Shown: one piece after another, positions 1-42,379 of the stretch
Layout: every line of letters begins with the position of its first letter
Position numbering within the stretch: the stretch's first letter is position 1
Virus record (IMG/VR): IMGVR_UViG_3300044946_000155
Coordinates: 1-47,429 of that record
Length of the DNA: 47,429 nt
Origin: a virus
Strand: one strand, 5' to 3'
Program-made: the position numbers and the translations under genes
The notes under the pieces: generated by a model
The model's input: the letters and a program-made list of their open reading frames with translations, nothing else
Database searches by the model: none
Told to the model about the DNA's origin: nothing

Positions 1-32
1 CGACTCGTCACAGTGACGGTTACATATTAAGA

Positions 33-131
33 TTCCTGTTTTATCCTTACTTTTCCGCATTTTTCCTGCCTTTCGCGCACCATTCGCGTGCTAATCGCTT
101 GCTAATTTCCTATTTATTCCATTCAATTCCT
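33..131. repeat. Helically phased TTCCT / TTCGC short repeats
   Basis: TTCCT-like words begin at 33, 43, 53 and 63, exactly 10 bases apart. Three TTCGC-like words follow at 11-base spacing (about 72, 83, 94). Then come TTTCC/ATTCC words ending at 110, 120 and 130. Similar phased arrays lie at 43333-43376 and 47341-47370. Such phasing puts each word on the same DNA face, as in protein-binding iterons of origins or centromeres; which one applies here is inference. Confidence 0.6.
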
Positions 132-208
132 ACATTATCTTTAGATTTTTTATTTGCTTTGCTTTGTTCGATATGCGGCAATTCCCCCGTATTTCTTAGA
201 TTTTTTAG

Positions 209-245
209 TTGCAATCTATAAAGTTATAAGCCTATAGTCATTTTC
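209..245 (+). promoter_or_regulatory. Promoter with CTATAGG-like operator (site A), probably leaderless
   Basis: TTGCAA (209-214), an 18-base spacer and TATAGT (233-238) make a sigma70-like promoter. The expected start point is about 245, next to the ATG at 246, and there is no Shine-Dalgarno, so the first gene may be leaderless. TTATAAG-C-CTATAG overlaps the -10 and resembles the repeats at 1667, 3625 and 5585. Confidence 0.5.
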
Positions 246-509
246 ATGAATAACGAACTGGCCTTTGGTCCTCTCAAACTCACTCAAGCAACTGCTAAGA
301 AGTTCTTACAGTCAATCGCCTGCACATTCCGCAAAACAGAGTACGGCGAATATCGCGTCAATCTCGTCGGGTCTACTGAATCGTCTGCTTACTACGCAGA
401 CTCACTCGAAGACGCTGTAAATACAGGCGTCTATATGCGTGAGTTCGCATCCAGATTGCATCCAGACTTCGTTTGCATCGCAACTGGAAGCACGTCAGGA
501 CAGAAGTAA
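246..509 (+). CDS. Small protein of unknown function ending in a duplicated AAA+ sensor-1 segment
   Basis: 87 aa, first gene of the + strand early operon. I do not recognise the first 70 residues. The last 17, from LHPDFVCIATG onward, nearly copy residues 246-259 of the next gene's product, where they form the sensor-1 strand of an AAA+ domain. At DNA level 457-494 matches 1267-1304 with two mismatches in 38, in the same codon phase. The tail is therefore probably a recombination scar that replaced the original C-terminus. The ATG has no ribosome binding site and sits about one base from the predicted transcription start, so leaderless translation is likely. Confidence 0.65.
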   Translation: MNNELAFGPLKLTQATAKKFLQSIACTFRKTEYGEYRVNLVGSTESSAYYADSLEDAVNTGVYMREFASRLHPDFVCIATGSTSGQK

Positions 510-512
510 AAA

Positions 513-531
513 TCTAAAAGGAGATTTTAGA
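513..531 (+). promoter_or_regulatory. Hairpin presenting the Shine-Dalgarno of the AAA+ gene in its loop
   Basis: TCTAAAA (513-519), loop GGAGA (520-524) and TTTTAGA (525-531) form a perfect 7-bp inverted repeat. The loop is the ribosome binding site for the ATG at 534. The stem is made of the TCTAAAA junction motif and its inverse. The structure could expose or mask the site; that is inference. Confidence 0.5.
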
Positions 532-533
532 AA

Positions 534-1661
534 ATGCTAGCAAGAGAGAATGTAACGTGCTTCCAGTGCAGCGAAGTCATTCGCGCTGGAATAGATGAGC
601 GCAAGTATGCCAGACGCGGCGAACACGTTGGGAAAAGCTTCCATGAGCATTGCTACAGCGTGTTTTTCGAGAGCGAGTCTGCTTTAATCCAGACGCAACC
701 AAACACGAATGGCGATGGATTAGCGGCGATACTGGCAACCACTTTGCAGCCCTATTTGACGCTACAGCGCGAAGAAATAACCGAGGAGCTAGAGTCAAGG
801 ATTCAAGAGATTGTCGAAGATGCAATCGCCAATATCCCAAAACAGATTCAGACGGTTTATATCCAACATGGCGAAACGCTGGGAACTGTAGACGGCCACA
901 AACATGAGCATTACGACTTGTTAGTCCGCCTTGTACAGAAACGGAAGCATATTTACCTGTATGGCGAAGCGGGAAGCGGGAAAAGCTCTGTAGCGCGTCA
1001 AATTGCCAAGATGCTAAAGCTAGATTTTAGATATCTGGCATTACAGGCACAAATGCAGGAATCTCGCATTATGGGCTACGTTTCGCCTATTACAAACAAG
1101 TATGTCGCGTCTGATTTTTATCGCTGCTATGTAAACGGTGGAGTGTTCCTTTTAGATGAACTGGAACTAGGAAACGATAATCTCATCGCTTCGCTCAATG
1201 GTGCGCTAGCGAATAAGCAGTGTGCTTTTCCGACCGGCGAGAATGGCGAAGGCGGATTACAAAACATGCATCCAGACTTCGTATGCATCGCAACTGGAAA
1301 CACGGCCGGGTATGGCGCGGATATTACGTACAGCGCGCGGCGCGCGTTGGATGGTTCCACACGTGATAGATTCTGCTACCTGCAATGGGATACAGACAAG
1401 ACTCTTGAAAAGCAGCTTGCAGGGCAGTATGGAAGTCATGCAGAAGCATGGGCGCGTTGGGTTCAAAACATGCGCGAATTGGCGAAAACTGTAGCGCGAA
1501 AGCTCGTAATTTCGCAGCGTGCTTCAATCGAGGGCGCAGACTTGCTAGCGTCTGGATTCAGCGTAGCGCAATGCGCCGATATGCTAGTGTTTCGCGGGAT
1601 TGACGCAAACACAAAGCAAAATTTGCTTGCAAGCTATCCATTGCCAGTAATCGCAATTTAA
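534..1661 (+). CDS. MoxR/CobS-like AAA+ ATPase with N-terminal Cys/His cluster
   Basis: 375 aa. Residues 9-40 hold a possible zinc site (C9xxC12, then H37, H39, C40). A helical linker runs to about 110, then an AAA+ core: Walker A GEAGSGKS at 144-151, Walker B GGVFLLDELE at 202-211, sensor-1 CIATGNT at 251-257, and arginines around 270-278 as possible fingers. This pattern fits the MoxR/CobS branch, whose members remodel partner proteins and usually pair with a von Willebrand A protein. The next gene is the likely partner. Translation should start at 534, behind GGAGA held in a hairpin loop. The actual substrate is unknown. Confidence 0.85.
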   Translation: MLARENVTCFQCSEVIRAGIDERKYARRGEHVGKSFHEHCYSVFFESESALIQTQPNTNGDGLAAILATTLQPYLTLQREEITEELESRIQEIVEDAIANIPKQIQTVYIQHGETLGTVDGHKHEHYDLLVRLVQKRKHIYLYGEAGSGKSSVARQIAKMLKLDFRYLALQAQMQESRIMGYVSPITNKYVASDFYRCYVNGGVFLLDELELGNDNLIASLNGALANKQCAFPTGENGEGGLQNMHPDFVCIATGNTAGYGADITYSARRALDGSTRDRFCYLQWDTDKTLEKQLAGQYGSHAEAWARWVQNMRELAKTVARKLVISQRASIEGADLLASGFSVAQCADMLVFRGIDANTKQNLLASYPLPVIAI

Positions 1662-1681
1662 GATACTATAGGGCTATAGGA
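1641..1681 (+). promoter_or_regulatory. Promoter with CTATAGG tandem operator (site B)
   Basis: TTGCCA (1641-1646), 17 bases and TACTAT (1664-1669) form a plausible promoter at the end of the AAA+ gene. It overlaps the tandem repeat CTATAGGGCTATAGG (1666-1680), whose last AGGA may also serve as ribosome binding site for the ATG at 1687. Confidence 0.5.
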
Positions 1682-1686
1682 ATCAT

Positions 1687-2529
1687 ATGGGACGCAAGAG
1701 AACATTTCCGAATCGAGCAGCGCGTTTGCCGTTAGATACGACGGCAAACGCTGATAGAAACGAAACGATTAGCATCTCAGAGCTACAGAGCATTTTTCGG
1801 GATATGGTGAGTGCAAACCGGGAAGGATACAGCTCTAACGATATGTCCGACCGCGATGGATTTTTCGGCGGAATGCTTCCAAGCGAAGCTTTAGACGCGC
1901 TGGAAAATGGATGGAAAAATGCTCCTGCCATCTCAGAACTGAGCATTCCGGCATTGCCAGCGCGTATAGATGAGACGGTTTTCTATAACGATGTTTGCGG
2001 AGATGTTTTAGATATCGGAGCGTATTGTGCAGGCTTGCCAGAATGCTTAATTCAAACCGAAACACGGCAGACGGTCGGAACTAAAATTCTTAGATTTGCC
2101 GTGGAAATAGGAGGGAGTTGGGCTATCCCAGCGCATGCAATGCGTCACCGTGGAACGGCAATGGTAGCCCTGATAAACGCGCTGGAATTGTCCGGTTATT
2201 CCGTTGAATTGACGATCATCCGAAGCTTCGCAGAGGACTACGGGGACGGCACAAAGCACGTTTACTTGATTCCGATCAAACAAGCTGGCGAAGTGTTAAA
2301 CATGCCACTCGTACAGTTCGCAATCGGCCATCCATCATTCTTTCGGCGCTGCTTATTCGGACTATCAGAGCACAAAATGGGCAAGTCTATGCACGAATCT
2401 AAGGCGAAGACTACGAACTATAAACCGGAAGGATTCATACACTTCAGTCACACGGACGGTTTGAGCAATAGCGAAGCCGAGTCCCTGAAGTGGGCGGAGA
2501 GCATGGTTGCAACGCTCTCCGCTGAGTAG
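1687..2529 (+). CDS. Conserved phage protein, probable partner of the AAA+ ATPase
   Basis: 280 aa. I recognise it only as a conserved phage-type protein found next to MoxR-like ATPases. A stretch near residues 150-185 (GSWAIPAHAMRHRGTAMVAL followed by a hydrophobic strand) looks like an alternating helix/strand domain similar to von Willebrand A partners, but no clear metal-site DxSxS is visible. It lies 25 bases after the ATPase gene with its own promoter-like CTATAGG repeat, so both joint and separate expression are possible. A partner role to the ATPase is inferred from position and loose fold resemblance. Confidence 0.6.
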   Translation: MGRKRTFPNRAARLPLDTTANADRNETISISELQSIFRDMVSANREGYSSNDMSDRDGFFGGMLPSEALDALENGWKNAPAISELSIPALPARIDETVFYNDVCGDVLDIGAYCAGLPECLIQTETRQTVGTKILRFAVEIGGSWAIPAHAMRHRGTAMVALINALELSGYSVELTIIRSFAEDYGDGTKHVYLIPIKQAGEVLNMPLVQFAIGHPSFFRRCLFGLSEHKMGKSMHESKAKTTNYKPEGFIHFSHTDGLSNSEAESLKWAESMVATLSAE

Positions 2530-2532
2530 CGC

Positions 2533-2588
2533 GCGTTTATGCGTCTACTCAAGGCCTCTCCAGAGGCTTTGAGTAGACGCATAAACGC
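2533..2588 (+). repeat. Near-perfect 27-bp inverted repeat (long hairpin)
   Basis: Arms 2533-2559 and 2562-2588 pair over 27 bases with one G-T and a two-base loop (CC). It starts three bases after the stop codon of the preceding gene. No T-run follows, so it is not a standard terminator. It could be an RNase III site, a transcript-end stabiliser or a recombination site. Confidence 0.85.
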
Positions 2589-2620
2589 CTAGTAAAAAAC
2601 TAAAAAGGGAGAAAACAGGA

Positions 2621-2881
2621 ATGGACACAAAGCAAACAAGACAGGAGCTTAACGCGGCGATGAAGCTATATGCGTCGTATGGTGCGATGGACTCAGAAGG
2701 CTTTTACGCTTTAGAGCGAATCGAGGATGCAATCGAAAACGGCAAACCGTTTCCACTCAAAGGTTCGAATCCGTGGGAACTATACCAGAGCGTACCGGGA
2801 TGGGACGCTGCACACACGGCGCTGATGATCACAGGCGAGAAATACTGGCGAGCGGCCATCACACAAAAACTCGGACTGTAA
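2621..2881 (+). CDS. Small protein of unknown function (86 aa)
   Basis: Mostly helical and soluble, with no motif I recognise. GGGAG lies 9-14 bases before the ATG, directly after an AAAAAACTAAAAA junction. The stop codon runs straight into the repeated leader that precedes the clamp-loader-like gene, so it is co-transcribed with that gene. Confidence 0.7.
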   Translation: MDTKQTRQELNAAMKLYASYGAMDSEGFYALERIEDAIENGKPFPLKGSNPWELYQSVPGWDAAHTALMITGEKYWRAAITQKLGL

Positions 2882-2890
2882 AACTAAAAA

Positions 2891-2936
2891 ATCTAAAACC
2901 AGTTCCGCCTGATGGCGAGAGAACGGAGCAAGCAAA
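2891..2936 (+). promoter_or_regulatory. Repeated translation leader, copy 1
   Basis: Consensus: ATCTAAAACCAG, then a CGCC-xxxx-GGCG hairpin, then GAGAGAACGGAGCAA and the ATG. This copy has loop TGAT where copies 2-4 have AGAC, while the CGCC/GGCG stem is kept. GGAG is the ribosome binding site for 2937. Confidence 0.7.
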
Positions 2937-3608
2937 ATGGATCTTTTCGGCAATAACAATCAAGGCAATCAAGGCGAGTTGAGATTCCCGGCAACACTCG
3001 CAGAGCGGTACAGACCGCAAACCATTGACGGGTTTATCGGACTGGACAAAGCTAAAAAGTTTATGTCTGGACTGCTTAGGAATCCCAAAGAATCGTCCTG
3101 GCTATTCGTGGGCCCGTCCGGTACAGGTAAAACATCTATGGCTTTAGCTTTGGCCGCGATGATTCCGGCGGAGCTGCACCATATCCCGAGTCAAAACTGC
3201 AACCTCGAAACAATCGAGCGCGTGCATCGCACATGCCACTATGTCCCCGCCGCAGGTAAAAACTATCACTTAGTTTTAGTTGACGAAGCGGATCGCATGA
3301 CCGACGCGGCACAGATCGCGCTGCTCTCCAAGCTGGACGGCACAGACACAGCGCCAAATACCATCTGGATTTTTACCTGCAACGCGATAGACCGACTGGA
3401 AGGACGTTTCCTCTCGCGTCACTTTCAAGTCGATTTTTCGAGCTACGGCATGGCGAAGGATGCCGCGTCTCTGCTAGAGGACATCTGGAACGAAGAGGCA
3501 CCAGACGATGCGAGCACGCCGAATTTTAGCCGCATCGTCAAGGAAGCGAATAACAATATCCGCGAAGCACTGATGAAGCTTGAAATGGAATTGATGCTTG
3601 TCTCTTGA
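2937..3608 (+). CDS. Clamp-loader-like AAA+ ATPase (RFC small subunit/DnaX-type core)
   Basis: 223 aa. The opening LAERYRPQTIDGFIG is typical of clamp-loader subunits. Walker A is GPSGTGKT at 59-66, Walker B LVLVDEAD at 112-118, sensor-1 asparagine at 149 and an SR pair at 160-161 in the arginine-finger position. The protein ends soon after the AAA+ lid, so the C-terminal collar domain of true clamp loaders is missing or very short. No DNA polymerase or sliding clamp is encoded in the window, so it must work with host proteins or in another remodelling task. A leader copy with GGAG precedes the ATG. Confidence 0.8.
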   Translation: MDLFGNNNQGNQGELRFPATLAERYRPQTIDGFIGLDKAKKFMSGLLRNPKESSWLFVGPSGTGKTSMALALAAMIPAELHHIPSQNCNLETIERVHRTCHYVPAAGKNYHLVLVDEADRMTDAAQIALLSKLDGTDTAPNTIWIFTCNAIDRLEGRFLSRHFQVDFSSYGMAKDAASLLEDIWNEEAPDDASTPNFSRIVKEANNNIREALMKLEMELMLVS

Positions 3609-3640
3609 CAGGCATCACAATTTCCTATAGGACTATAATC
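3605..3640 (+). promoter_or_regulatory. Promoter-like region with CTATAGG operator (site C)
   Basis: TTGACA at 3605-3610 is a perfect -35. CCTATAGGACTATAATC (3624-3640) holds the operator-like repeat and a perfect TATAAT (3634-3639). The spacings of 15 bases to TATAGG and 23 to TATAAT are both off the optimum, so the true -10 is unclear. Confidence 0.45.
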
Positions 3641-3662
3641 ATATAGACGGGAGGGCTACACA

Positions 3663-3884
3663 ATGCCGGTTAAATACGAGGTTGAAGTAGACATAGACTT
3701 TAAGCTTTTACGCAAACAGAAGAGAGTCCTCATCTCACTTGCCAGCGACAAGCGCGTACGTACCAGCAAAAGCCGAGTGGACGCACTGGAAGGAATTATC
3801 AATCTAATCGATCACATGCAGGATGCCGCAGTGGATTCAGGCGCGGCATCTGAAGACACGGTTTTCGGTTCGGAAAATATCTAA
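3663..3884 (+). CDS. Small basic/helical protein of unknown function (73 aa)
   Basis: The N-terminal strand VKYEVEVDIDFKLL is followed by a basic helix. No known domain. GGGAGGG at 3650-3656 is a good ribosome binding site. The 3' end TCGGAAAATATCTAAAAACT (3870-3889) recurs with one mismatch at the end of the next gene (4051-4070), so the junction itself has been copied. Confidence 0.65.
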   Translation: MPVKYEVEVDIDFKLLRKQKRVLISLASDKRVRTSKSRVDALEGIINLIDHMQDAAVDSGAASEDTVFGSENI

Positions 3885-3906
3885 AAACTTTAGGAGGGAA
3901 GAACAG

Positions 3907-4065
3907 ATGAACAGGTTTCTCAACTATTACGAATGCAATCACGAAGGACGGTTGGCCGCTGACCGTCCAGCCGCGATGTGGCAAGACGAATCCGAATGCA
4001 CAAACAACGACAAATGCCCCGTCTGCAACGCAGAGATTGAGCCGTACAAATCGGAAGATATCTAA
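3907..4065 (+). CDS. Small zinc-ribbon-like protein (52 aa)
   Basis: Starts at ATG 3907 behind TAGGAGGG. Cysteines and histidine in YECNHEG, SEC and KCPVCN resemble a treble-clef or zinc ribbon of the phage/plasmid small-protein type. Function unknown; nucleic-acid binding is possible. Confidence 0.65.
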   Translation: MNRFLNYYECNHEGRLAADRPAAMWQDESECTNNDKCPVCNAEIEPYKSEDI

Positions 4066-4086
4066 AAACTAAAAAGGAGAATGGAC

Positions 4087-4575
4087 ATGGACACAACACG
4101 CGAAGGACTGTCATACGAATGGAAAGTAGGGGGGCCGTGGGATACAGAGGCTATCTGCGTGCTCTATCGCAGGCCGGGATTTACAGACGCCCAGATTGAA
4201 GACGCGAAGCAGGAAATTAGCTGGCACGTAGACGTGTACGCCTTTGAAGTGGTTGAGCCGAAATCTGGAGGATACGCCGAGGACATCATCGAAGACGCGG
4301 CAGACTATGACGCTATAGAAGTGCATGGCGTTCGTGACATCGCGCCTCCAGAGGTAGCAGCCGACGGAAGTACGATCTGCGAAGTAGACGACGACAATCC
4401 GCAATTCTTTAGCGTTTACGTGCATCTGGTACAGGGCGGAGTCGAGTGCATTGGAGACTTTGAAACGCGGACGGGGGCGCGGGATTATGCCCTGCGGATT
4501 CACCGTCAATTCGGCTGGACGGTCTTCAACTACGTTGACAGCATGAACGAACCGGAACACATCGCGGGAGCCTAA
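4087..4575 (+). CDS. Acidic protein of unknown function (162 aa)
   Basis: Rich in Asp and Glu, with no motif I recognise. Two ATGs are possible, 4081 and 4087. AAGGAGA ends directly before 4081, so 4087 has the better spacing. The stop codon is only three bases before a hammerhead ribozyme, so this gene's 3' end would be made by ribozyme cleavage 31 bases past the stop. Confidence 0.7.
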   Translation: MDTTREGLSYEWKVGGPWDTEAICVLYRRPGFTDAQIEDAKQEISWHVDVYAFEVVEPKSGGYAEDIIEDAADYDAIEVHGVRDIAPPEVAADGSTICEVDDDNPQFFSVYVHLVQGGVECIGDFETRTGARDYALRIHRQFGWTVFNYVDSMNEPEHIAGA

Positions 4576-4577
4576 AA

Positions 4578-4635
4578 GGACGAAACGCGGATTCGTTTTC
4601 CGCGTCCGGGCGTAAAGCGTCCCGCTGACGAGTCC
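4578..4635 (+). ncRNA. Type II hammerhead ribozyme
   Basis: All core parts are present in the order of a circularly permuted type II hammerhead. Stem II 5' strand GGAC (4578-4581), GAAA (4582-4585), stem III ACGCGG/CCGCGT (4585-4590 with 4600-4605), cleavage triplet GTC with C17 at 4606, stem I CGGG-CG/CG-CCCG (4607-4624, one bulged T), CTGACGA (4625-4631) and stem II 3' strand GTCC (4632-4635). Predicted self-cleavage is between 4606 and 4607. It lies between two co-directional genes and would split the early polycistronic mRNA. Hammerheads are known in phage genomes, but the role at this place is open. Confidence 0.9.
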
Positions 4636-4665
4636 AAGTCAGAACCTAAAACGGAGGGGAAACAT

Positions 4666-4833
4666 ATGGAAAACGAACTCAAGCCTCATGAACAGGCGCT
4701 CATTGACCTTCTTTGGGATTACCTCAAGAAAGACCCTGAGCATAAGGACAGGCGACAAACCGGTTTCGGAACAAAGACGAAGATTGGCCTAGTGGCTAGC
4801 ATCAATCGAATTATCGCGGAGGCGCGCCAGTGA
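4666..4833 (+). CDS. Small protein of unknown function (55 aa), first gene after the hammerhead
   Basis: Starts MENELKPHEQ, charged and helical. CTAAAACGGAGGGG gives a strong ribosome binding site 7 bases before the ATG. After ribozyme cleavage at 4606 this would be the first gene on the 3' fragment, with a 59-base leader. The stop overlaps the GTG start of the next gene (GTGA). Confidence 0.65.
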   Translation: MENELKPHEQALIDLLWDYLKKDPEHKDRRQTGFGTKTKIGLVASINRIIAEARQ

Positions 4834-5045
4834 AGCTTGTCATTGAAGTTGAGATAGGCGGCAATGGGCTGCTGTCGCTGCACGATGCGCTCGAAGTCAT
4901 AACAGCAAGCATGAACGACTTTGGGTATCACCACAACGGTACACGCGGCGTAGTCGAACCCTCTAATGGTGCGCTGATTTACACGCCTGCGGGTGCAATC
5001 GTTGGTAATTGGGATGTCTTCAGCGCAAGCGAAGACGACGATTAA
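4830..5045 (+). CDS. Small protein of unknown function, GTG start (71 aa)
   Basis: Overlaps the previous gene by GTGA, which indicates translational coupling; GGAGG lies 7-11 bases upstream. The beginning MKLVIEVEIGG is a beta strand; the end is acidic. The size and build resemble small alpha/beta phage proteins without assigned function. Confidence 0.65.
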   Translation: MKLVIEVEIGGNGLLSLHDALEVITASMNDFGYHHNGTRGVVEPSNGALIYTPAGAIVGNWDVFSASEDDD

Positions 5046-5046
5046 A

Positions 5047-5093
5047 AAATCTAAAACCAGTCCGCCAGACGGCGAGAGAACGGAGCAAGTGAA
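5047..5093 (+). promoter_or_regulatory. Repeated translation leader, copy 2
   Basis: AAATCTAAAACCAG, then the CGCC-AGAC-GGCG hairpin (5063-5074), then GAGAGAACGGAGCAA. Nearly identical to copies 1, 3 and 4. Supplies GGAG for the ATG at 5094. Confidence 0.75.
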
Positions 5094-5267
5094 ATGCAGA
5101 AACGAACTGAACCTTTTACAGTCGGAGAATTGCAACGCCTGCTAGACAACTGCGACCCCAACGCAGTTATCAAGTTCGCTGGCTGGCAATGCGTCCACAC
5201 TTTAACAGTCTGCGAAACGTGGCGATCCAGCGAAGGCGCAGTCATCACATTTGAAGAAATCAACTAA
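5094..5267 (+). CDS. Small conserved phage-type protein (57 aa)
   Basis: MQKRTEPFTVGELQRLLDNC followed by DPNAVIKF and a C-terminal strand. This layout (helix LxxLLxxxxPxAxVxF, then strands) matches a widespread family of 60-80 residue phage/plasmid proteins with no assigned function. Translation is set by leader copy 2. Confidence 0.7.
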   Translation: MQKRTEPFTVGELQRLLDNCDPNAVIKFAGWQCVHTLTVCETWRSSEGAVITFEEIN

Positions 5268-5281
5268 AGGAGAATCTAAAA

Positions 5282-5581
5282 ATGCCAATGCCACCAGCGA
5301 AATTTCAACTCGGGCAATGCTGCTCAACTCGCGGCGCAATCACCGCGCTCGAAGCCACAGGCGAGGCACCTATCGTCTACCTTGCACGCCACAGCTCCGG
5401 TGATTGGGGCGACCTGAGCGGCGACGACAAAGCACGCAATGACGCCGCGCTCATCCCGAACGAAGACGGCGAGTGCGAGCGGATTCTAAGCGCGTATCAC
5501 CTGAAAGACGGGACGAAAATCTGGGTGATTACGGAATGGGATCGGTCGGTTACGACGATTCTTCTACCCAGCGAATACTAG
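5282..5581 (+). CDS. Conserved plasmid-associated protein (99 aa)
   Basis: The core ARHSSGDWGDLSGDDKARN and the end DGTKIWVITEWDRSVTTIL are the signature of a small protein common on plasmids, integrative elements and some phages. The biochemical role is not established. Its presence agrees with a plasmid-like lifestyle. GGAGA lies 7-11 bases before the ATG. Confidence 0.75.
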   Translation: MPMPPAKFQLGQCCSTRGAITALEATGEAPIVYLARHSSGDWGDLSGDDKARNDAALIPNEDGECERILSAYHLKDGTKIWVITEWDRSVTTILLPSEY

Positions 5582-5584
5582 AAT

Positions 5585-5600
5585 CCTATAGGGTGATAGG
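5585..5600 (+). promoter_or_regulatory. CTATAGG operator-like repeat (site D)
   Basis: CCTATAGGGTGATAGG lies just before the RHH gene at 5624. With sites A-C the consensus is CTATAGG-N-YRATAGG, 8-base steps. The placement suggests autoregulation by the downstream RHH protein; this is inference. Confidence 0.5.
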
Positions 5601-5623
5601 ATACCCAACAGAAGGGAAACTGA

Positions 5624-5827
5624 ATGCCAACGAAAACTAAAAAGACTAAGACGGCGGCTTCCACCAACGACGGGCGCGTATTGATTGGCGGCTTCTTTGC
5701 GCCAGAGGTACGCATGGAACTGAAAATGATCTGCGCGGCGAGGGGAATAACCCTGCAAGCCTTGCTCACCGAGGGAATTAATCTAATCCTGGCAAAGTAC
5801 GGCGACAAGAAAAAGAGAATCGCCTAA
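5624..5827 (+). CDS. Ribbon-helix-helix DNA-binding protein (ParG/CopG-like, 67 aa)
   Basis: A basic disordered start (KTKKTKTAAS) is followed by strand RVLIGGFFAPE and two helices, VRMELKMICAARGI and LQALLTEGINLILAKYG. This is the ParG/CopG layout: strand for base contacts, then helix-turn-helix dimer core. Such proteins repress their own operons by binding 7-8 base tandem repeats, and site D sits 24-39 bases upstream. Good ribosome binding site GAAGGG. A second RHH protein is encoded next to parA at 45768, so this one may be a separate regulator. Confidence 0.75.
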   Translation: MPTKTKKTKTAASTNDGRVLIGGFFAPEVRMELKMICAARGITLQALLTEGINLILAKYGDKKKRIA

Positions 5828-5880
5828 AATCTAAAACCTTAAACCAGTCCGCCAGACGGCGAGAAAGACGGGAAACGAAA
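5828..5880 (+). promoter_or_regulatory. Repeated translation leader, copy 3
   Basis: AATCTAAAACC, a short insert TTAAA, then CCAGTCCGCCAGACGGCGAG with the CGCC/GGCG hairpin, and GACGGGAAACGAA before the ATG at 5881. Confidence 0.7.
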
Positions 5881-6408
5881 ATGAAAATCACAGTTTGGAC
5901 ACTAGCAAGCGACGACGACAGCGGAACACAAGCCAGCGTTTTTTCCAACGAGTACGCGGCTGAACAAGCGTACTTCGAGGCCATTTTTACCGAGGAAGGC
6001 CCGACCCAGCGAGAAGCGAGGAAGGCTCTGGACTCCGGCGATTATGACGAACTGCACGACATCGCGCAGAAGTATTTAGAGGGCAGCTTAGATACATACA
6101 ACATCGACTCTCAGGTGGTCGAGGTGCAACCCGAGGCCGAACCGAATCGCGCAGCCTTGAATTCCCTGCCATCCGACCCCGAGGACATGAACGACGAACG
6201 CGCGTATTGGGCGGGTGAGACGCTGGCATATTTCACTAGAACCTACGGCGAGCAGGAAGGCGGCGACCGTCAGAACTTGGCCGATCTGCTGGCCGATCTA
6301 GCTCACTACTGTGACCGCAACAGCCTGAAGCTCGACGAGTGCCTTGCCACGGCTCGGATGAACTATGCAGCCGAAACCGACGAGCAGGGGGCGCAGTTTG
6401 ACCGCTAA
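5881..6408 (+). CDS. Two-part acidic protein of unknown function (175 aa)
   Basis: The first ~80 residues (MKITVWTLASDDDSG onward) resemble small phage/plasmid proteins that begin with a strand and an acidic helix. Residues ~100-165 form a helical part (AYWAGETLAYFTRTYG, LADLLADLAHYCDRN) that looks like a separate conserved helical domain. It may be a fusion of two small proteins. Function unknown. Translation depends on leader copy 3. Confidence 0.65.
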   Translation: MKITVWTLASDDDSGTQASVFSNEYAAEQAYFEAIFTEEGPTQREARKALDSGDYDELHDIAQKYLEGSLDTYNIDSQVVEVQPEAEPNRAALNSLPSDPEDMNDERAYWAGETLAYFTRTYGEQEGGDRQNLADLLADLAHYCDRNSLKLDECLATARMNYAAETDEQGAQFDR

Positions 6409-6417
6409 CGCCCACCA

Positions 6418-6451
6418 GCCGCCGGAGAGGGGGAAAACCCTGTCCGGCGGC
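6418..6451 (+). other. Strong GC hairpin after the 175-aa gene
   Basis: GCCGCCGGA (6418-6426) pairs perfectly with TCCGGCGGC (6443-6451), with an inner GGG/CCC and AAAA loop. No T-run follows. Possible RNA stability or pausing element. Bases 6452-6494 hold nothing else I can assign. Confidence 0.6.
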
Positions 6452-6494
6452 AAAGAATCGCTAGAACAGGCCATAGCGCGCGAAGACGGCCACA

Positions 6495-6533
6495 CCAAAC
6501 CAGTCCGCCAGACGGCGAGAAGACGGAGAACAC
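6495..6533 (+). promoter_or_regulatory. Repeated translation leader, copy 4
   Basis: CCAAACCAGTCCGCCAGACGGCGAG with the CGCC/GGCG hairpin and AGACGGAGAACAC before the ATG at 6534. Here the TCTAAAA part is missing. Confidence 0.7.
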
Positions 6534-6677
6534 ATGAATTACGCGGGAATAGCCCTTGTACTTGTCATGGCTTGCGTGCCTTTGGCCGCAGCCTGGCACG
6601 AACGCAAATTAAAAAATCTAAAACCGATTCCCCCCGAAACGGAGAGCACGCAACATGCAACCGGAAATTCTACCTAG
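6534..6677 (+). CDS. Small single-span membrane peptide (47 aa)
   Basis: MNYAGIALVLVMACVPLAAA forms one membrane helix, then WHERK and a polar tail. GGAG lies 7-10 bases before the ATG within leader copy 4. Its 3' part overlaps leader copy 5 and the first 23 bases of the next gene, so the tail may be incidental. Similar tiny membrane proteins are common in phage early regions. Confidence 0.5.
   Translation: MNYAGIALVLVMACVPLAAAWHERKLKNLKPIPPETESTQHATGNST
6610..6654 (+). promoter_or_regulatory. Repeated translation leader, copy 5 (diverged)
   Basis: AAAAAATCTAAAACCGATTC then CCCCCGAAACGGAGAGC before the ATG at 6655. The hairpin part is degraded; the CTAAAACC start and CGGAG end are kept. Confidence 0.55.
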
Positions 6678-6960
6678 AGGTAAACACTTGTTTTTTAAGT
6701 TCTTAGGACGTTCGCGGACGGGACGATCAACCACCGTCACCGTCCTAGTCCGCGATCCAGACGCGCAGCCAGGTCAGATCATGCAGAACGTAAGCCGCAA
6801 CGCGGCGGACGCGCTAGAGGCACCTTGGCACACATCGCAGGACGCCGTGATCCTGCAACGTCGGTATGAAACCCCGAACGAGCTGGGGGATTGGATTGCC
6901 GGCGAGCTGGGAAAGAAGATCCACTCCGAGGCGCAAGCCTTTACATGGGAATGGATCTAA
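6655..6960 (+). CDS. Protein of unknown function (101 aa)
   Basis: Basic N-terminus (HLFFKFLGRSRTGRSTTVTV) with predicted strands, then a helical and acidic C-terminus. I do not recognise a family. GGAG lies in leader copy 5; the ATG choice is well supported. The stop is embedded in ATCTAAAATCTAAA. Confidence 0.65.
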   Translation: MQPEILPRGKHLFFKFLGRSRTGRSTTVTVLVRDPDAQPGQIMQNVSRNAADALEAPWHTSQDAVILQRRYETPNELGDWIAGELGKKIHSEAQAFTWEWI

Positions 6961-7001
6961 AATCTAAACTTTTTTACAACTGAAGGGGAAAACTAAAGCA
7001 A

Positions 7002-7253
7002 ATGTCTACAAAAAAGAAAACAGAAGTAAAGTCACCTTTCACGCAAAAAATGGACCGCTTAGAAACGATCAAGTCCCACTTGAAAGTTGACCTCACAGAT
7101 GGATGGGCTTTCGATTCTATGGTGTGTATGTGTCTCGCGCAGTTTGTGACAGACGAACAATGGGACTCTGCCATTCTCACCGCTCAAACACACAAGCTGA
7201 AGGAAGCAAAGCTGGAGGAAGCAAGAAACAAGAGGGTTCTCAAAAATGCCTAA
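7002..7253 (+). CDS. Small helical protein of unknown function (83 aa)
   Basis: Lysine-rich start, a central segment DGWAFDSMVCMCLAQFV and a charged C-terminal helix with KLKEAKLEEARNKR. GAAGGGGAA lies about 15-23 bases before the ATG, a long spacing. Its end overlaps the next gene by 8 bases. Confidence 0.6.
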   Translation: MSTKKKTEVKSPFTQKMDRLETIKSHLKVDLTDGWAFDSMVCMCLAQFVTDEQWDSAILTAQTHKLKEAKLEEARNKRVLKNA

Positions 7254-7389
7254 ACCAACAGTGAGAATATTCATCGCAAGGAAGGACAGCAGCGGAAAGA
7301 TTGTCGAGGCAAAGAAAACTGCAAGGGTCAAGGCTTTGGAGAAAGCCGCGAATGATCTCTATGCAGCGGCGAAGAAGAAGAGAGGATGA
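7246..7389 (+). CDS. Small basic protein (47 aa)
   Basis: MPKPTVRIFIARKDSSGKIV then a lysine/alanine-rich helix ending AAKKKRG. It starts inside the previous gene and stops in an ATGA overlap with the next one, which fits a coupled small gene. Function unknown; the charge suggests nucleic-acid contact. Confidence 0.55.
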   Translation: MPKPTVRIFIARKDSSGKIVEAKKTARVKALEKAANDLYAAAKKKRG

Positions 7390-7616
7390 CGATGCCAGCA
7401 ATCAAAGGTGCGACGTGGAAGCTCGAAGTTGGCGTGAAGCCCGATCCTTCTCGCTTTGACGGTTTCGATAAAACGGAGACGTTTCGACTCTTTGCTGACA
7501 CTCACAACAAAGCGGTAGAGATTATGAAGAAGTACCGGAAAGACTTTAACGCCGACTACATTGTGAAATCGGAACGCGAAATCTTTCATGTGATCGTCGA
7601 CTTTCCAGAGGTTTGA
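7386..7616 (+). CDS. Small protein of unknown function (76 aa)
   Basis: ATGA overlap with the previous stop. Contains ATWKLEVGV, an aromatic-rich centre and FHVIVDFPEV at the end, a likely alpha/beta fold. A second ATG two codons in (7392) is an alternative start. No family recognised. Confidence 0.6.
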   Translation: MTMPAIKGATWKLEVGVKPDPSRFDGFDKTETFRLFADTHNKAVEIMKKYRKDFNADYIVKSEREIFHVIVDFPEV

Positions 7617-7648
7617 CGATCAAAAACAATTACGAAGGGAGAAGGGAA

Positions 7649-7834
7649 ATGCCGCTGTACAACGTGACGTATCAATACACCACTGAGGTTGAAGCCAACA
7701 GCGAGGCTGAAGCCATCGCAAAGATGCACGAAGAAAGGCTAATGAACGACGATAACGGTGTCGTCTTCGCTTACGACGTGGAAGAGGACAGGAAGCAGGA
7801 GGCAGCACGCAAAGCTAAAGCCACTGCTAACTAA
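7649..7834 (+). CDS. Small protein of unknown function, last gene of the left operon (61 aa)
   Basis: MPLYNVTYQYTTEVEANSEAEAIAKMHEE: a strand followed by an acidic helix with AEAIAKM, a common small phage fold. GAAGGGAGAAGGGA precedes the ATG at 7649; the frame is open upstream to 7613 but without an ATG. The gene converges on the - strand genes that begin at 7847 with only 12 bases between. Confidence 0.65.
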   Translation: MPLYNVTYQYTTEVEANSEAEAIAKMHEERLMNDDNGVVFAYDVEEDRKQEAARKAKATAN

Positions 7835-7846
7835 AAAAGCGCGTTT

Positions 7847-8005
7847 TTATTTCCGCATCTGCCGGCGCGATCCGCGCCGGTAGCCGCGCTTTCCGAGGGT
7901 ATGAGGTTTCGGTCCGCAACCGTTCGATGCAATCCAGGTAGCGCGGTGTTCCGTCTCGATAGACTTCGCCAGGTCTTTCTCTTGTGGTGTGTTGCTGCGC
8001 GCCAT
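7847..8005 (-). CDS. Small basic protein (52 aa) at the end of the late operon
   Basis: MARSNTPQEKDLAKSIETEH then an Arg-rich tail YRRGSRRQMRK. A strong GGGAGG sits 9-14 bases before the ATG. It follows the 65-aa gene by five bases. An inverted repeat CCGGCGC/GCGCCGG (7862-7880) lies in its 3' part. Function unknown; the basic tail suggests binding to nucleic acid. Confidence 0.6.
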   Translation of the reverse strand: MARSNTPQEKDLAKSIETEHRATWIASNGCGPKPHTLGKRGYRRGSRRQMRK

Positions 8006-32640: not shown

Positions 32641-33477
32641 CTACTGCCCTCGCTCCTGGCGCTCGATCGCTTCCGCTTCCTGCTGCTGTATCTCCTGGTC
32701 CCTCTGGAGGAGCTGTTGGTGTAGGTGGTCCAGGTTGACCGGTCCCGCCGTCTCCGGACGGTCGCCGGTTTGGAAGGGGAAATGGTATGGGGCGCTTCCG
32801 TCCTGGTTTTTTTGCTGGTCCACCGGGAACGGAACCACCTGTCCCTGGGGCTGTATCGAGGCTGGCGCTAGTCCCGCCTGCGCCTTCTGCGCCATCTGGT
32901 TCGGATCGAACGGTCGGACTGGCTGCGGCGGGAACCCCGCGTAAATCATGTTCGGGTCCATTCCCTGTAGGGTAAACAGCGCGGCTGCTGGATGTTCGGT
33001 TGAGGGGGCAGGGGGGATATTTGGATAAGTCAACGTTCTTGCGGCCTCTTCTTTTAGTCTCCATTCGGCTTGCTGCCTTTCTCGCTCGGGTGAGCGAATG
33101 ATTCCACTTTGCGCGCTGACGACGGTTACTTCCAGGTGCTGTCCGTCGAGGGTGCGCGCGAAAAGGATGTTGTAATCGGTGTCGACGTACTCCATATCTT
33201 TCGCGGAGAATTTCGCCGTTCCCTTTTGCCGCAACAGCAATGCCAGCAAGAGCGCGTACTGCATACGCTCGGGGTTGGCGACATATTGCGGGTCCAGCTC
33301 CATCGGAGCGGCCGGCGTCTGCAGCTTGCGCCGCTTTTTCGGCGCTTCGAGCGGCTGCATGTCTACAACGTCGGGTATTTGCACATCCACGTTTACGTCC
33401 TGCTGCGTGTCCGCAATGTCGGGTGTATGCACTTTCGTAATTTTGGGTTTCTGCGTTGCTGCTTTTCTAGGACTCAT
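32641..33477 (-). CDS. Conserved packaging-region protein, Pro/Gln-rich (278 aa)
   Basis: Start at 33477 behind GGAGGAG, overlapping terminase by 11 bases. A basic Pro-rich N-terminus is followed by a conserved alpha/beta part (QYALLLALLLRQKGTAKFSA, DYNILFARTLDGQHLEVTVV) at about residues 72-125, and a Pro/Gln-rich tail with a terminal coiled coil. Function unknown; often found beside terminase. Confidence 0.65.
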   Translation of the reverse strand: MSPRKAATQKPKITKVHTPDIADTQQDVNVDVQIPDVVDMQPLEAPKKRRKLQTPAAPMELDPQYVANPERMQYALLLALLLRQKGTAKFSAKDMEYVDTDYNILFARTLDGQHLEVTVVSAQSGIIRSPERERQQAEWRLKEEAARTLTYPNIPPAPSTEHPAAALFTLQGMDPNMIYAGFPPQPVRPFDPNQMAQKAQAGLAPASIQPQGQVVPFPVDQQKNQDGSAPYHFPFQTGDRPETAGPVNLDHLHQQLLQRDQEIQQQEAEAIERQERGQ

Positions 33478-35194
33478 CCCTGTTCTCCTCCATGCGGCGT
33501 ATTTCATCCAGGTGGTGCTGCAGGTTCATGGTCAAAATTCCGCCCTGGGTGCTCATATGCGAAACCTTGAAATTGACTCCCTTTAGTTCCAGCGGATCTT
33601 CGTTGATCGCGGATTCGTAAGCTTCGCAGCGGCGAGGATGCCATTGGTCTTTGGCAATCCATCCCAGCGCGCCGGCATAGAAAATCTCGTCAAAATTGGC
33701 GATGGCTTCAAAGCGGAAGGCGTTTGACCACTGGACGGAGGACATCTGCTCGACAAAGGCCTCGTCGCTGGTGATGGCCTCGCGGCGTTTGATCGAAGTC
33801 AAGAGGGTATTCAGCATCATGTTGCGGGTGTAATCGGTGATGGTGAATCCCAGACTGTTCGCTGACCTGGTTGGATCTGCCTTGTCGTTCCTGCCCTTCC
33901 ACTTGTACTGGTTGGGATACCTCTCCCGGTCCCTCAGCTCTTGGAAGATCCGCGTCCCGAATCCTCCGTGGCTGTCTTCGCAGGCAATCATGGCGCGGTT
34001 GAAGTAGCAGGCAAAGGCGTAAACCGTGTTGGTTGCGAACTCCTGGCGCAAGGGGATATGCACGCGGCCGGCGATGACGCCGGTTTCCCCGTTCCAGACG
34101 ACCATTGCCAGCATGTCTGGCTCGGGCGGTCCCTCGTCGTCCTTGTCGGCCATGCCGATCACGACGCCGGCGAAGTAATGCGCGCCTGGCTCCGGAGCTT
34201 CATAGACGATAAAGCGTCCCTGGCTGTTCTCCCGCGCGCGCGCCTTGTGTCCCGGTGCCGTCTCCAGCTCCATCTGCTTAAAAGCTGTGTTTTTCGCCCA
34301 TTTACTACAGAGCGTGATGGCGTCGAAGTCAAAGACCGGATCGCCGGATGCGTTGAAGGCCTCATCGGGGTCGCCGGGGTACTCTTTCCGCCACCGATCG
34401 AGCGAACCGCCGCATTTCGAGGTGAGCGTGGTCCGGTAGAACGCAATCCGCTCCTTCGGCAGCTTCAAATCCCGCATCAGGTACTTTTCGTAGTCGTCGC
34501 GGGGGGCGTCCTTGGCGAGCTTCGGATCGCGGACGTAATCCGGGTCCTCGTGCCAGGGGAGAAAGACCGTAAGGTATTCCGTGTCGCCGGCTACAGACGC
34601 CATCCACAAATCGTAGTAGGCCTGTCCTGGGCCTTCCTTACCGTTGGGGGTTGTTTCGACCAGTACGACATTCTCGGGGTCGTCTGAGACGGTAGAAAAA
34701 ACCGCCGGGAACACGTCCGCATTGATGTAATACGCCGCTTCCGTTGCGTGCAACATCGTGAATCCCAGACCGCGAGAACCAACCACGTTGCCGGCCGTCT
34801 GCCAGGAAAGCTTTGAAGGGATTTTCCAGAAATTTATCTCCTGTTGGGTGTATTTCCATGCGTTCTTTTTGAGCGGGAGCTGCTTGCATACGCTGTGCGC
34901 TTCTTCGTACAGGGCGCGGGCGGTGATTTTCTGCTGTCCCAGGATCAGGCCGTCGGCAAACTCTTTCTCCAGTAAGTGCGCCTGCATCAAGAAACGCGCC
35001 CAGGTGGAAACTCCCAGCCGCCGGCCTTTGAGGAAGATGACGAAAAGCCTTCGCCGGCGCGCCATGTGGTCGCGGCATTTCTGCATGATGTCCTGTTGGC
35101 TGGGATTCAGACGGAAGGGGATCGGCCGGTTTGTTTGCCGGTCCCGAACGGTGAAGCTTCGGAAGAATTTCTCCGCCTGGTACAGATCCAACAT
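33467..35194 (-). CDS. Terminase large subunit
   Basis: 575 aa. The ATPase part has a Walker A variant KGRRLGVST at 56-64, a Walker B-like strand with E152 in TMLHATEAAYY, and VLVETTPNG (about 177-185) as coupling motif. In the nuclease half, HYFAGVVIGMADKDD near 355-370 is at the first metal-Asp position but lacks the usual GxDxA; MIACEDSHGGFGTRIFQEL near 413-431 is the second region. It powers DNA packaging and cuts the concatemer. ATG 35194 with GGAT context. Confidence 0.85.
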   Translation of the reverse strand: MLDLYQAEKFFRSFTVRDRQTNRPIPFRLNPSQQDIMQKCRDHMARRRRLFVIFLKGRRLGVSTWARFLMQAHLLEKEFADGLILGQQKITARALYEEAHSVCKQLPLKKNAWKYTQQEINFWKIPSKLSWQTAGNVVGSRGLGFTMLHATEAAYYINADVFPAVFSTVSDDPENVVLVETTPNGKEGPGQAYYDLWMASVAGDTEYLTVFLPWHEDPDYVRDPKLAKDAPRDDYEKYLMRDLKLPKERIAFYRTTLTSKCGGSLDRWRKEYPGDPDEAFNASGDPVFDFDAITLCSKWAKNTAFKQMELETAPGHKARARENSQGRFIVYEAPEPGAHYFAGVVIGMADKDDEGPPEPDMLAMVVWNGETGVIAGRVHIPLRQEFATNTVYAFACYFNRAMIACEDSHGGFGTRIFQELRDRERYPNQYKWKGRNDKADPTRSANSLGFTITDYTRNMMLNTLLTSIKRREAITSDEAFVEQMSSVQWSNAFRFEAIANFDEIFYAGALGWIAKDQWHPRRCEAYESAINEDPLELKGVNFKVSHMSTQGGILTMNLQHHLDEIRRMEENRDES

Positions 35195-40097: not shown

Positions 40098-41870
40098 CTA
40101 TCCTCCAATTGGAAATAAGATGTCACGCGCGCGGACTTGGCCGGACGCAGGGTACTCGATCAGCCCGAAGCTTTTCAAGCGAGAGCGCGGAACCGAATAG
40201 CTGGACGACGCCGCCGAATACCCTGCATCGTGCGCCAGGTCTTCGTTAGTCATCGCGTCGGGATACGCCTCGATGAGCGGACGCAGCAAGCGGCCTTCCG
40301 GTCCTGGAAGCTTCGCGTAGATCATATGGTGAAGGCCTGCGTTAGTTGCGGGAGTATCGGTATCGTGCGCGAGAGCGCGGCCTTTCGGCGTGAGCTGGAT
40401 CCGTCCATTTGCCATGTATTCGACCGTCTGCTTTCGAGCAAGGATACTGCGAGGAACGGTGTAGCTCGATGACTTGAAGGAATAGCCGGCGAGAAATGCG
40501 ACGGCGGGTTGTTCCGGATCCGCTACGCCGATCGCTTCAAACCATGCGATTGCGTCCAGGATGCGCTGCTCCGGTCCAGTTAGCCCGTCGTTCGACGGCT
40601 GTCCCATCTCCGCGAAGGCAGGCTCGGCCCGTAGGACGCGCGCCTGTACCATCGGCCGTACAGGCGGCGGAGCTTTCGCCTCGCTGGTGCGCTCCTTGTA
40701 GGCGACACTCGCGTTTTTCACATACGCCTCTATTGTCGCCTCTATATCGTCGCTTTCCAGCACGACGACCAACTGCCGCGCTACATGCTGCGCCTTCCGC
40801 AACTGCTCAGAATACTTGGCGAGCTGCGAACGAATCGGCTTTAACAGCGTTGCGGTGTCGATCTGCGGCTCTTTCGCGGGAGCTGGTTTCTTCTTTAGTT
40901 CGCGCTCCAGCTCCGCGATGCGCTTCCGTAAGGCCTGGGGGTCATCCTTCTGCGCGCGGGTGATAACTTCCTCAAGGTCCGATTTCAGCGCGGCAACGTC
41001 AAGCTTCGTGAGGACTCTCGCCTTTTGCGTTGCGCCCACTTTCGGCGTGGCGGTTGAATCGAACGTTGTCTTTTTGGCGAAGTGCATTCGCTCGAAGATC
41101 CGCAACCAGGACGGGGACCACACAAACCCCTCGCCTTGGTGCAGGCCGGGCAGCTCTCCCACCAGGGCGCGGTCGCTGGCGCTGTGCTCCTCTACCCACC
41201 TTTGCAGCGCGTCCCGCTCCTGGCGTCCGTTCACCTGCAGGACGAAGAGGCATTCGGTCTGGTTCAAGACTTCCTTGTTTACGCTCTGCGGCCGCTGGGT
41301 GATGAGAGTCGCGCCGATACCGTAATTGCGTCCCAGGCGAATGATCTGCTCAAATGCGCCCAACATCTCGGCCTCGCTAAATTTCTCGTCCTTGCGCGTC
41401 GGACGCGGAAACTGCGGAGCAAAGAGCTGGGCTTCCTCGATAAAGATATGGACCGGAGAGGTCTGCCTTTTTTTTAGATGAAAGAACTCCTCGGCAAAAT
41501 CCGCCGCGAAGCGTTTGCGTTCGCCGGTGCGAAATTCCGAGATGTCGATGATCGCGGAGATGGGCTTCTCGACCAGTAGCCTCGCGATGCGCGCGCCGGC
41601 CTCGATCGAAATGGGAACATCGCCGCGCCTTCCTCCAATGATAAAAATCTCTTTACCTTTAGATTTTCCGTCCGCCTGCAGGCGCAGCCCCCACCACAGT
41701 CCAATCGGATCTAGGATGACGACTTGTGCGCCAGCATCGAGCATCTGTTCGGCAATCATGGTAGCGAGATAGGTTTTCCCCGCTCCACGTCGGCCGATGG
41801 TGGCAAGGACCTGGGTGACGGCATCAATGGGGAGGCGCAGGGCATCGCTGATTTTTAAGCCTGTATTCAT
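40098..41870 (-). CDS. HerA/FtsK-type ATPase with tandem winged helices (590 aa)
   Basis: Start at 41870 in an ATGA overlap with the HNH gene. Walker A GRRGAGKT at 26-33, Walker B VHIFIEEAQLF near 157, and ATLITQRPQSVNKEVL (sensor region) identify a HerA-like DNA translocase. A coiled coil follows (IAELERELKKK). The C-terminal ~150 residues hold two similar winged-helix units, each with the SSSYxVPRSxL motif. The same type of tandem unit forms the 223-aa protein two genes upstream. Confidence 0.8.
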   Translation of the reverse strand: MNTGLKISDALRLPIDAVTQVLATIGRRGAGKTYLATMIAEQMLDAGAQVVILDPIGLWWGLRLQADGKSKGKEIFIIGGRRGDVPISIEAGARIARLLVEKPISAIIDISEFRTGERKRFAADFAEEFFHLKKRQTSPVHIFIEEAQLFAPQFPRPTRKDEKFSEAEMLGAFEQIIRLGRNYGIGATLITQRPQSVNKEVLNQTECLFVLQVNGRQERDALQRWVEEHSASDRALVGELPGLHQGEGFVWSPSWLRIFERMHFAKKTTFDSTATPKVGATQKARVLTKLDVAALKSDLEEVITRAQKDDPQALRKRIAELERELKKKPAPAKEPQIDTATLLKPIRSQLAKYSEQLRKAQHVARQLVVVLESDDIEATIEAYVKNASVAYKERTSEAKAPPPVRPMVQARVLRAEPAFAEMGQPSNDGLTGPEQRILDAIAWFEAIGVADPEQPAVAFLAGYSFKSSSYTVPRSILARKQTVEYMANGRIQLTPKGRALAHDTDTPATNAGLHHMIYAKLPGPEGRLLRPLIEAYPDAMTNEDLAHDAGYSAASSSYSVPRSRLKSFGLIEYPASGQVRARDILFPIGG

Positions 41871-42379
41871 CGCGTACCTGCTCCTCTTCTCGTCAGGCCA
41901 TGTCTTAGACGCCACACAGTTGATTGTGAAACTCCGAACAGTCGGGCAAGATCGCGCTGCTTTCTATCGGTCATCAACCTTAGTTCAGCGATTTGCTCAT
42001 CAGTCAAATGAGCATTGGGATTATGCAGGCCGGTCAATGTTGGCGGTTTAGAATGCCTGCCCCTGGATCTCATATCTGCGAGGTTTTTGTCTTGCGTGCC
42101 GACATACAGATGATTTGGCCTCCAGCATGGTCTGTTATCGCATTCATGCAATACAAACAAGCCGTCTGGTTTTCCACGAAACAGAATGTAGGAAAGGTGA
42201 TGAATGTAACGATCCCGATCGTGGATGGAAATAGACCCGTAACCGTTCTTTTTATATCCAGTCCATTCCCAGCATCCGTTGTCGTGAAAGATCGTCTTTT
42301 TAGTGATCCGGCGGATTATATGTTCAGCCGGTATCTCTTCAAAGATCTGCGTTACCACGTCCAATTTCAGGCCGGTCAT
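41867..42379 (-). CDS. HNH endonuclease with C-terminal HTH (170 aa)
   Basis: CWEWTGYKKNGYGSISIHDR, then HHLSYILFRG, HECDNRPCWRPNHLYVGT and NLADMRSRGR: an HNH of the homing-endonuclease type. From ~125 there is LTDEQIAELRLMTDRKQRDL with ARLFGVSQSTVWRLRHG, a resolvase-like HTH. Free-standing members are mobile, but here it is joined by ATGA overlaps to both neighbours, so a part in the module is also possible. Confidence 0.8.
   Translation of the reverse strand: MTGLKLDVVTQIFEEIPAEHIIRRITKKTIFHDNGCWEWTGYKKNGYGSISIHDRDRYIHHLSYILFRGKPDGLFVLHECDNRPCWRPNHLYVGTQDKNLADMRSRGRHSKPPTLTGLHNPNAHLTDEQIAELRLMTDRKQRDLARLFGVSQSTVWRLRHGLTRRGAGTR

Follow-up and report, generated by a model that had tools for sequence, protein, structure and literature searches.

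Operon splitting by hammerhead ribozymes of phages was proposed in 2011 (Perreault et al. 2011, PMC3088659). Type II hammerheads with cores similar to the one considered here cleave fast in vitro, and a triple hammerhead array of A. tumefaciens cleaves in E. coli (PMC3088659). Together with twister ribozymes, hammerheads are common to phage-linked neighbourhoods, for a reason that is unknown (PMC10085705), and the use that phages make of self-cleaving ribozymes is regarded as an open question (PMC3088659, PMC6155905, PMC10085705). In Rfam, the type II hammerhead is represented by RF02276 (Hammerhead_II), a model of 66 positions with a gathering cut-off of 37 bits, in which stem II has 2 bp and the tail is conserved; it matches the pseudoknotted type of PMC3088659.

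The locus described here belongs to a linear virus record of the IMG/VR class (47,429 bases; the window hereafter, i.e., the whole stretch of DNA that was analysed). By every feature that can be assessed in silico, positions 4578–4635 of the window are a type II hammerhead, and cleavage is predicted. RNA of this type is already known and common in phages after stop codons, and the window copy represents a new example of it.

Anatomy of the site and support for the hammerhead fold

The ribozyme lies between co-directional phage genes, with a stop codon immediately upstream and a Shine–Dalgarno site downstream. The features of the site are as follows:

4081–4575 (+), upstream gene, 164 aa, with the stop codon TAA at 4573–4575 (162 aa if read from the in-frame ATG at 4087)
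4578–4635 (+), type II hammerhead ribozyme, 58 nt, recognized by the core and three stems, folding, shuffles and the covariance model R1
4578–4581 (+), stem II 3' strand GGAC, the partner of 4632–4635
4582–4585 (+), core GAAA (G12, A13, A14, A15.1), invariant across 57 relatives
4585–4605 (+), stem III hairpin, 7 bp (4585–4591 with 4599–4605, loop 4592–4598), A15.1–U16.1 being the final pair
4606–4607 (+), predicted cleavage between C4606 (C17) and C4607 (1.1), from the sequence and the established hammerhead mechanism
4607–4624 (+), stem I hairpin (4607–4612 with 4618–4624, loop UAAAG at 4613–4617, bulged U4620)
4625–4631 (+), core CUGACGA (C3–A9), invariant across 57 relatives save N7
4632–4635 (+), stem II 5' strand GUCC, the partner of 4578–4581
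4638–4642 (+), anti-core tail GUCAG, the complement of CUGAC (4625–4629) in the core and able to form a competing hairpin
4653–4659 (+), Shine–Dalgarno-like GGAGGGG of the downstream gene, from the sequence
4666–4833 (+), downstream gene, 55 aa, start codon ATG at 4666

According to folding, the descriptor and R1, three helices are present, of which stem II is open while stems I and III are closed by loops; the sequence and the descriptor give the conserved core with H17 at the cut. Read from the sequence, the triplet at the cut is GUC ending at C4606. The first-pass annotation, made from the sequence alone, had placed the cut between C4606 and C4607, and the anatomy of the site agrees with this as the predicted position. 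It was also right about GGAGGGG in the leader of the downstream gene. Certain details need revision: stem III, described as 6 bp with A15.1–U16.1, is indeed there but comprises 7 bp when this pair is counted; the flanking genes of 162 and 55 aa are the right pair, but the upstream open reading frame extends to 164 aa from ATG 4081; the ribozyme does begin just after the stop codon, but 2 bases (4576–4577), not 3, separate TAA from stem II. The upstream 164-aa protein has no Pfam match and one relative (46% identity), found in L002. A relative of the downstream 55-aa protein (66% identity) is present in L002 as well, separate there from the homologue of the 164-aa protein.

A descriptor comprising all three hammerhead types with a perfect core was applied to both strands of the window and returned a single match, at 4578–4635. 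Dinucleotide-shuffled sequences yielded 0.05 loose matches per shuffle, and in none of the 60 shuffles were the stems as good. The covariance model R1, constructed from 57 aligned phage copies whose stem II has 4 bp (the window excluded), gave 54.3 bits (E 5.5e-20) at the site and 10.8 bits for the runner-up in the window. Hence, the shuffles and the R1 score argue that the site is not a product of chance, and the complete type II hammerhead of the first-pass annotation stands with all of its elements present. When folded alone with ViennaRNA, the segment 4576–4640 adopts the hammerhead secondary structure. A search for variant-core hammerheads in the window and its relatives returned none. 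Covariation of the stems in the alignment A1 is partly circular, since its members were chosen by pairing. A form comparable to the bulged U of stem I occurs in about 1% of the family, as seen by a descriptor biased towards perfect stems.

A search with a covariance model, the check suggested earlier, gave a divided outcome: Rfam 15 at the gathering score found no match at the site, whereas the purpose-built R1 matches it. At a relaxed threshold, Rfam produced only a partial type I alignment in the window (16–19 bits), and the 37-bit cut-off for membership in RF02276 was not reached at the site. The possibility of taking this miss as evidence against the ribozyme was rejected, since RF02276 fails clear members as well: 19 clear phage type II copies scored 24–35 bits, all under the cut-off. 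The miss stems from the requirement of the model for a 2-bp stem II and a pseudoknot between loop I and the 3' tail. In the window, such a pseudoknot (at least 4 pairs) is absent: by reading, no 4-mer of the tail AAGUCAGAACCUAAAACGG could pair with loop I GUAAAGC, even with wobble pairs allowed. Such a pseudoknot is known as the tertiary contact behind fast cleavage by type II hammerheads. Overall, the current type II model of Rfam, which lacks this subfamily, misses a common group of phage ribozymes at its cut-off.

Abundance in phages, placement after stop codons and likely role

A scan of IMG/VR with the pattern GGACGAAA-GUC-CUGANGAGUCC revealed at least 120 viral stretches; two further scans, in which stem II had other sequences, also yielded at least 120 each. 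Many phage contigs harbor several type II copies. Among bacteria and archaea, about 85,000 genomes gave 53 raw matches to the same pattern, with 16 copies passing the structural filter. The element is therefore largely viral, mainly of phages. When isolated phages were searched with the site at the DNA level, nothing rose above noise, and no isolated phage close to that of the window was found.

To assess the placement of the family, frames open for 50 codons or more were considered and the stop codon closest to each ribozyme was taken, with random places in the same loci serving as controls. The end of the stop codon fell within −4 to +2 nt of the ribozyme in 63% of the copies listed (n = 185) vs. 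4% of the controls. In an independent set with mostly other stem II sequences, the figure was 77% of the copies listed (n = 244) vs. 3%. The commonest layouts include a one-base overlap between the end of the stop codon and stem II (+1, typically UAG), direct adjacency (0) and a 2-nt gap (−2); the window copy, with its 2-nt gap, represents one of the commonest classes. A start codon with a Shine–Dalgarno-like site is situated no more than 60 nt downstream in 162 of the 185 copies listed. Thus, the succession of stop codon, ribozyme, Shine–Dalgarno site and start codon is the rule in phage copies, and the stop-adjacent placement, which the first-pass annotation took for an unusual case, turned out to be a common phage layout (63–77% within −4 to +2 nt).

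Likely, the phage is a tailed one whose early polycistronic mRNA the window hammerhead splits in cis, leaving hairpin-capped ends. The RNA would fold co-transcriptionally and then be cut between C4606 and C4607. Hammerhead chemistry leaves a 2',3'-cyclic phosphate on the C4606 side and a 5'-OH on the C4607 side. The upstream mRNA would end with the stem III hairpin and a C carrying the cyclic phosphate; the downstream mRNA would start from the 5'-OH of the stem I hairpin and retain its own leader with GGAGGGG. A hairpin is expected on both new ends because stems I and III are closed in type II, the only permutation with this property, and protection of both messages is plausible. As a result, each of the two genes would have a message of its own, with its own stability and translation. 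A ribosome stopped at 4573–4575 would, judging by its footprint, cover GGACGAAA; therefore, cutting would wait until the ribosome leaves. The sharp placement after stop codons, along with the exchange of ribozyme classes between related phages (see below), argues for mRNA cutting exactly between genes.

A tail complementary to the catalytic core

Directly 3' of stem II, the window reads AAGUCAG, of which GUCAG is the complement of CUGAC in the core. With the NUCAG tail defined as lying 0–2 nt after stem II, UCAG takes this place in 48 of 440 distinct copies (about 11%, among the copies listed), while no other permutation of these four letters exceeds 10. The enrichment is seen both in the discovery set (37 vs. 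5.4 expected) and in the replication set (23 vs. 4.6 expected). The N of the tail is complementary to the core N7 in 46 of the 48 (39 U7–A and 7 C7–G; permutation p < 2e-5), or in 38 of 40 if one case is taken per contig and N7 (p 4e-5). The evidence of covariation comes mainly from the discovery set; the replication set alone includes two C7 members with the tail (covariation p 0.07). A family-wide MFE test of core–tail pairing in 440 members displayed no excess (52% vs. 51% in shuffled tails); hence, anti-core pairing is claimed here for the NUCAG subset only. In this subset, the covarying tail offers a simple mutational handle.

In the 3' product of the window RNA, the anti-core hairpin, directly adjoining stem I, amounts to 6.9 kcal/mol. 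For the uncut RNA, the hairpin is predicted to beat stem II by 2.7 kcal/mol when tertiary contacts are left out of the model, and the nearest-neighbour probabilities in the presence of the natural tail are 0.0 for stem II and 0.98 for the anti-core hairpin. Given this modelled preference before cleavage, the activity could be low, unless cutting precedes the synthesis of the tail or tertiary contacts outweigh the preference. We read the tail as a trap that would make the cutting one-way: GUCAG would capture the core CUGAC after cutting, promoting product release and precluding rejoining. A true off-switch is the main alternative. More tentatively, the tailed copies may form a group of their own among phage type II hammerheads, with a built-in off-switch in which the 5-base tail after stem II pairs with CUGAN and changes in step with the variable base there. 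Post-cut (or late-cut) locking of the core beside stem I would then result in a one-way cut and a double hairpin at the downstream 5' end.

The same tail could instead keep a real hammerhead off, so that it cuts little in the cell and serves as a conditional switch, the release coming from a protein, from a ligand or from ribosomes moving at the stop codon before it or the start codon behind it. The predicted advantage of the anti-core hairpin (2.7 kcal/mol and 0.98, in a model without tertiary terms), the covarying complementarity (46/48) and the stop codon directly beside stem II are compatible with such a switch. However, the tail is carried by only about 11% of the family, the energy model omits core and tertiary contacts as well as co-transcriptional folding, and no ligand-binding domain was seen, so a conditional switch seems unlikely.

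Neither a description of an off-switch tail nor one of exact stop-codon abutment was found in the searchable papers, and the same is true of the failure of Rfam for this subfamily. Judged by these papers, the priority of the three additions (the sharp statistic on stop codons, the covarying tail and the Rfam failure) is uncertain.

Related phages and comparison with known systems

The early operon codes for a MoxR-like AAA ATPase, a DUF7192 protein and a clamp-loader-like AAA protein, and its relatives were found in eight IMG/VR contigs. The examined region of these eight contained no type II hammerhead; two weak R1 matches in the relatives (16.5 and 14.7 bits) were not accepted. In L003, syntenic with the same clamp-loader operon, no ribozyme was detected in the region by the descriptor, Rfam or R1. 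L008, which has six early-region genes in common with the window, carries twister-P5 at 3011–3068 (+) (Rfam, 43 bits), in the gap that separates the stop codon of the clamp-loader gene (2998) from the start codon that follows (3088). In L004, which has only the clamp loader in common with the window within the stretch compared, a type I hammerhead is located at 2622–2683 (+), where its core CUGAUGA includes the stop UGA of the upstream ORF 2355–2633 and the next start is at 2710; this ribozyme is based on the descriptor only, the Rfam HH9 score being 18.8 bits, under the cut-off. Thus, different ribozyme folds occupy the same kind of early intergenic place in related phages. Because the relatives possess other self-cleaving classes in their early gaps, it is the cutting rather than the sequence that seems to be kept.

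The variation of ribozyme class and place between related phages, the lack of a type II hammerhead at the same place in the relatives examined and the rarity of the bulge in the family could also be signs of a decayed or nearly neutral ribozyme, i.e., a mobile relic at the junction, with stem I weakened by the bulged U4620 and of no use to the phage. The perfect core, the two other stems left intact, the R1 score of 54.3 bits, the precise stop-codon placement common to hundreds of copies and the compactness of phage genomes speak against such decay and make it improbable. Splitting of the early mRNA in cis appears to be the best explanation, against which the bulged stem I, the missing loop I/tail pseudoknot and L003, with no ribozyme detected in this region, may be counted. 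A non-ribozyme origin is hardly credible: the hairpin 4583–4607, which on the minus strand is the complement of the stem III region with CGTCCTTTTA behind it, is the strongest of 11 terminator-like sites in the scan, but a minus-strand intrinsic terminator was rejected here since this number is not above chance (10.1 expected by shuffling), and this reading, like that of a chance structure, leaves stem I, CUGACGA and GUCC unexplained and is opposed by the R1 score and the shuffles.

Several side observations concern the same genomes. A short motif, (C/T)CTAAAA or ACTAAAAACTT, recurs immediately after stop codons or before Shine–Dalgarno sites in several early intergenic gaps of the window region 3880–5290 (e.g., near 3881, 4063, 4571, 4645, 5049 and 5275), as well as at L003:3988 and L008:2996. 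The window displays two separate terminase large subunit matches, at 33467–35194 (−) (phrog_2, E 6.9e-14) and 40098–41915 (−) (phrog_2666, E 9.3e-18); two such proteins are unusual for one phage. No homologue of the window terminase was detectable in the early-operon relatives G001–G008, some of which are fragments; judging by these sequences, the early module (window 1–8000) seems to be exchanged between phages with different packaging genes. A ribbon-helix-helix antitoxin-like protein is encoded at 5624–5827 (+) of the window (PF20605, E 1.7e-17), and a 217-aa protein resembling, by reading of its sequence, a ParA ATPase at L003:5322–5975 (+); such proteins are in keeping with a plasmid-like (partitioning) lifestyle.

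Among the known systems, the self-cleaving RNAs described in PMC10085705 also feature different classes near the same phage-related genes, as does the twister-P5 of L008, although the folds differ. The type II hammerheads of RF02276 and PMC3088659, from bacteria and prophages, resemble the window copy in the permutation (only stem II open), the core and the phage genes on both sides. In contrast, they possess a stem II of 1–2 bp and a loop I/3'-tail pseudoknot, whereas the window copy has 4 bp and no pseudoknot; its UNANG-like loop I and anti-core tail also set it apart from this type. The closest likeness is that to the phage type II hammerheads with a 4-bp stem II in IMG/VR: the pattern, the stem lengths, the UNANG loop I and the layout of stop codon, ribozyme and Shine–Dalgarno site are the same, and a subset of them bears the NUCAG tail, as the window copy does. 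The latter differs from this family by the bulged U in stem I and by being single, whereas many phages have several copies.
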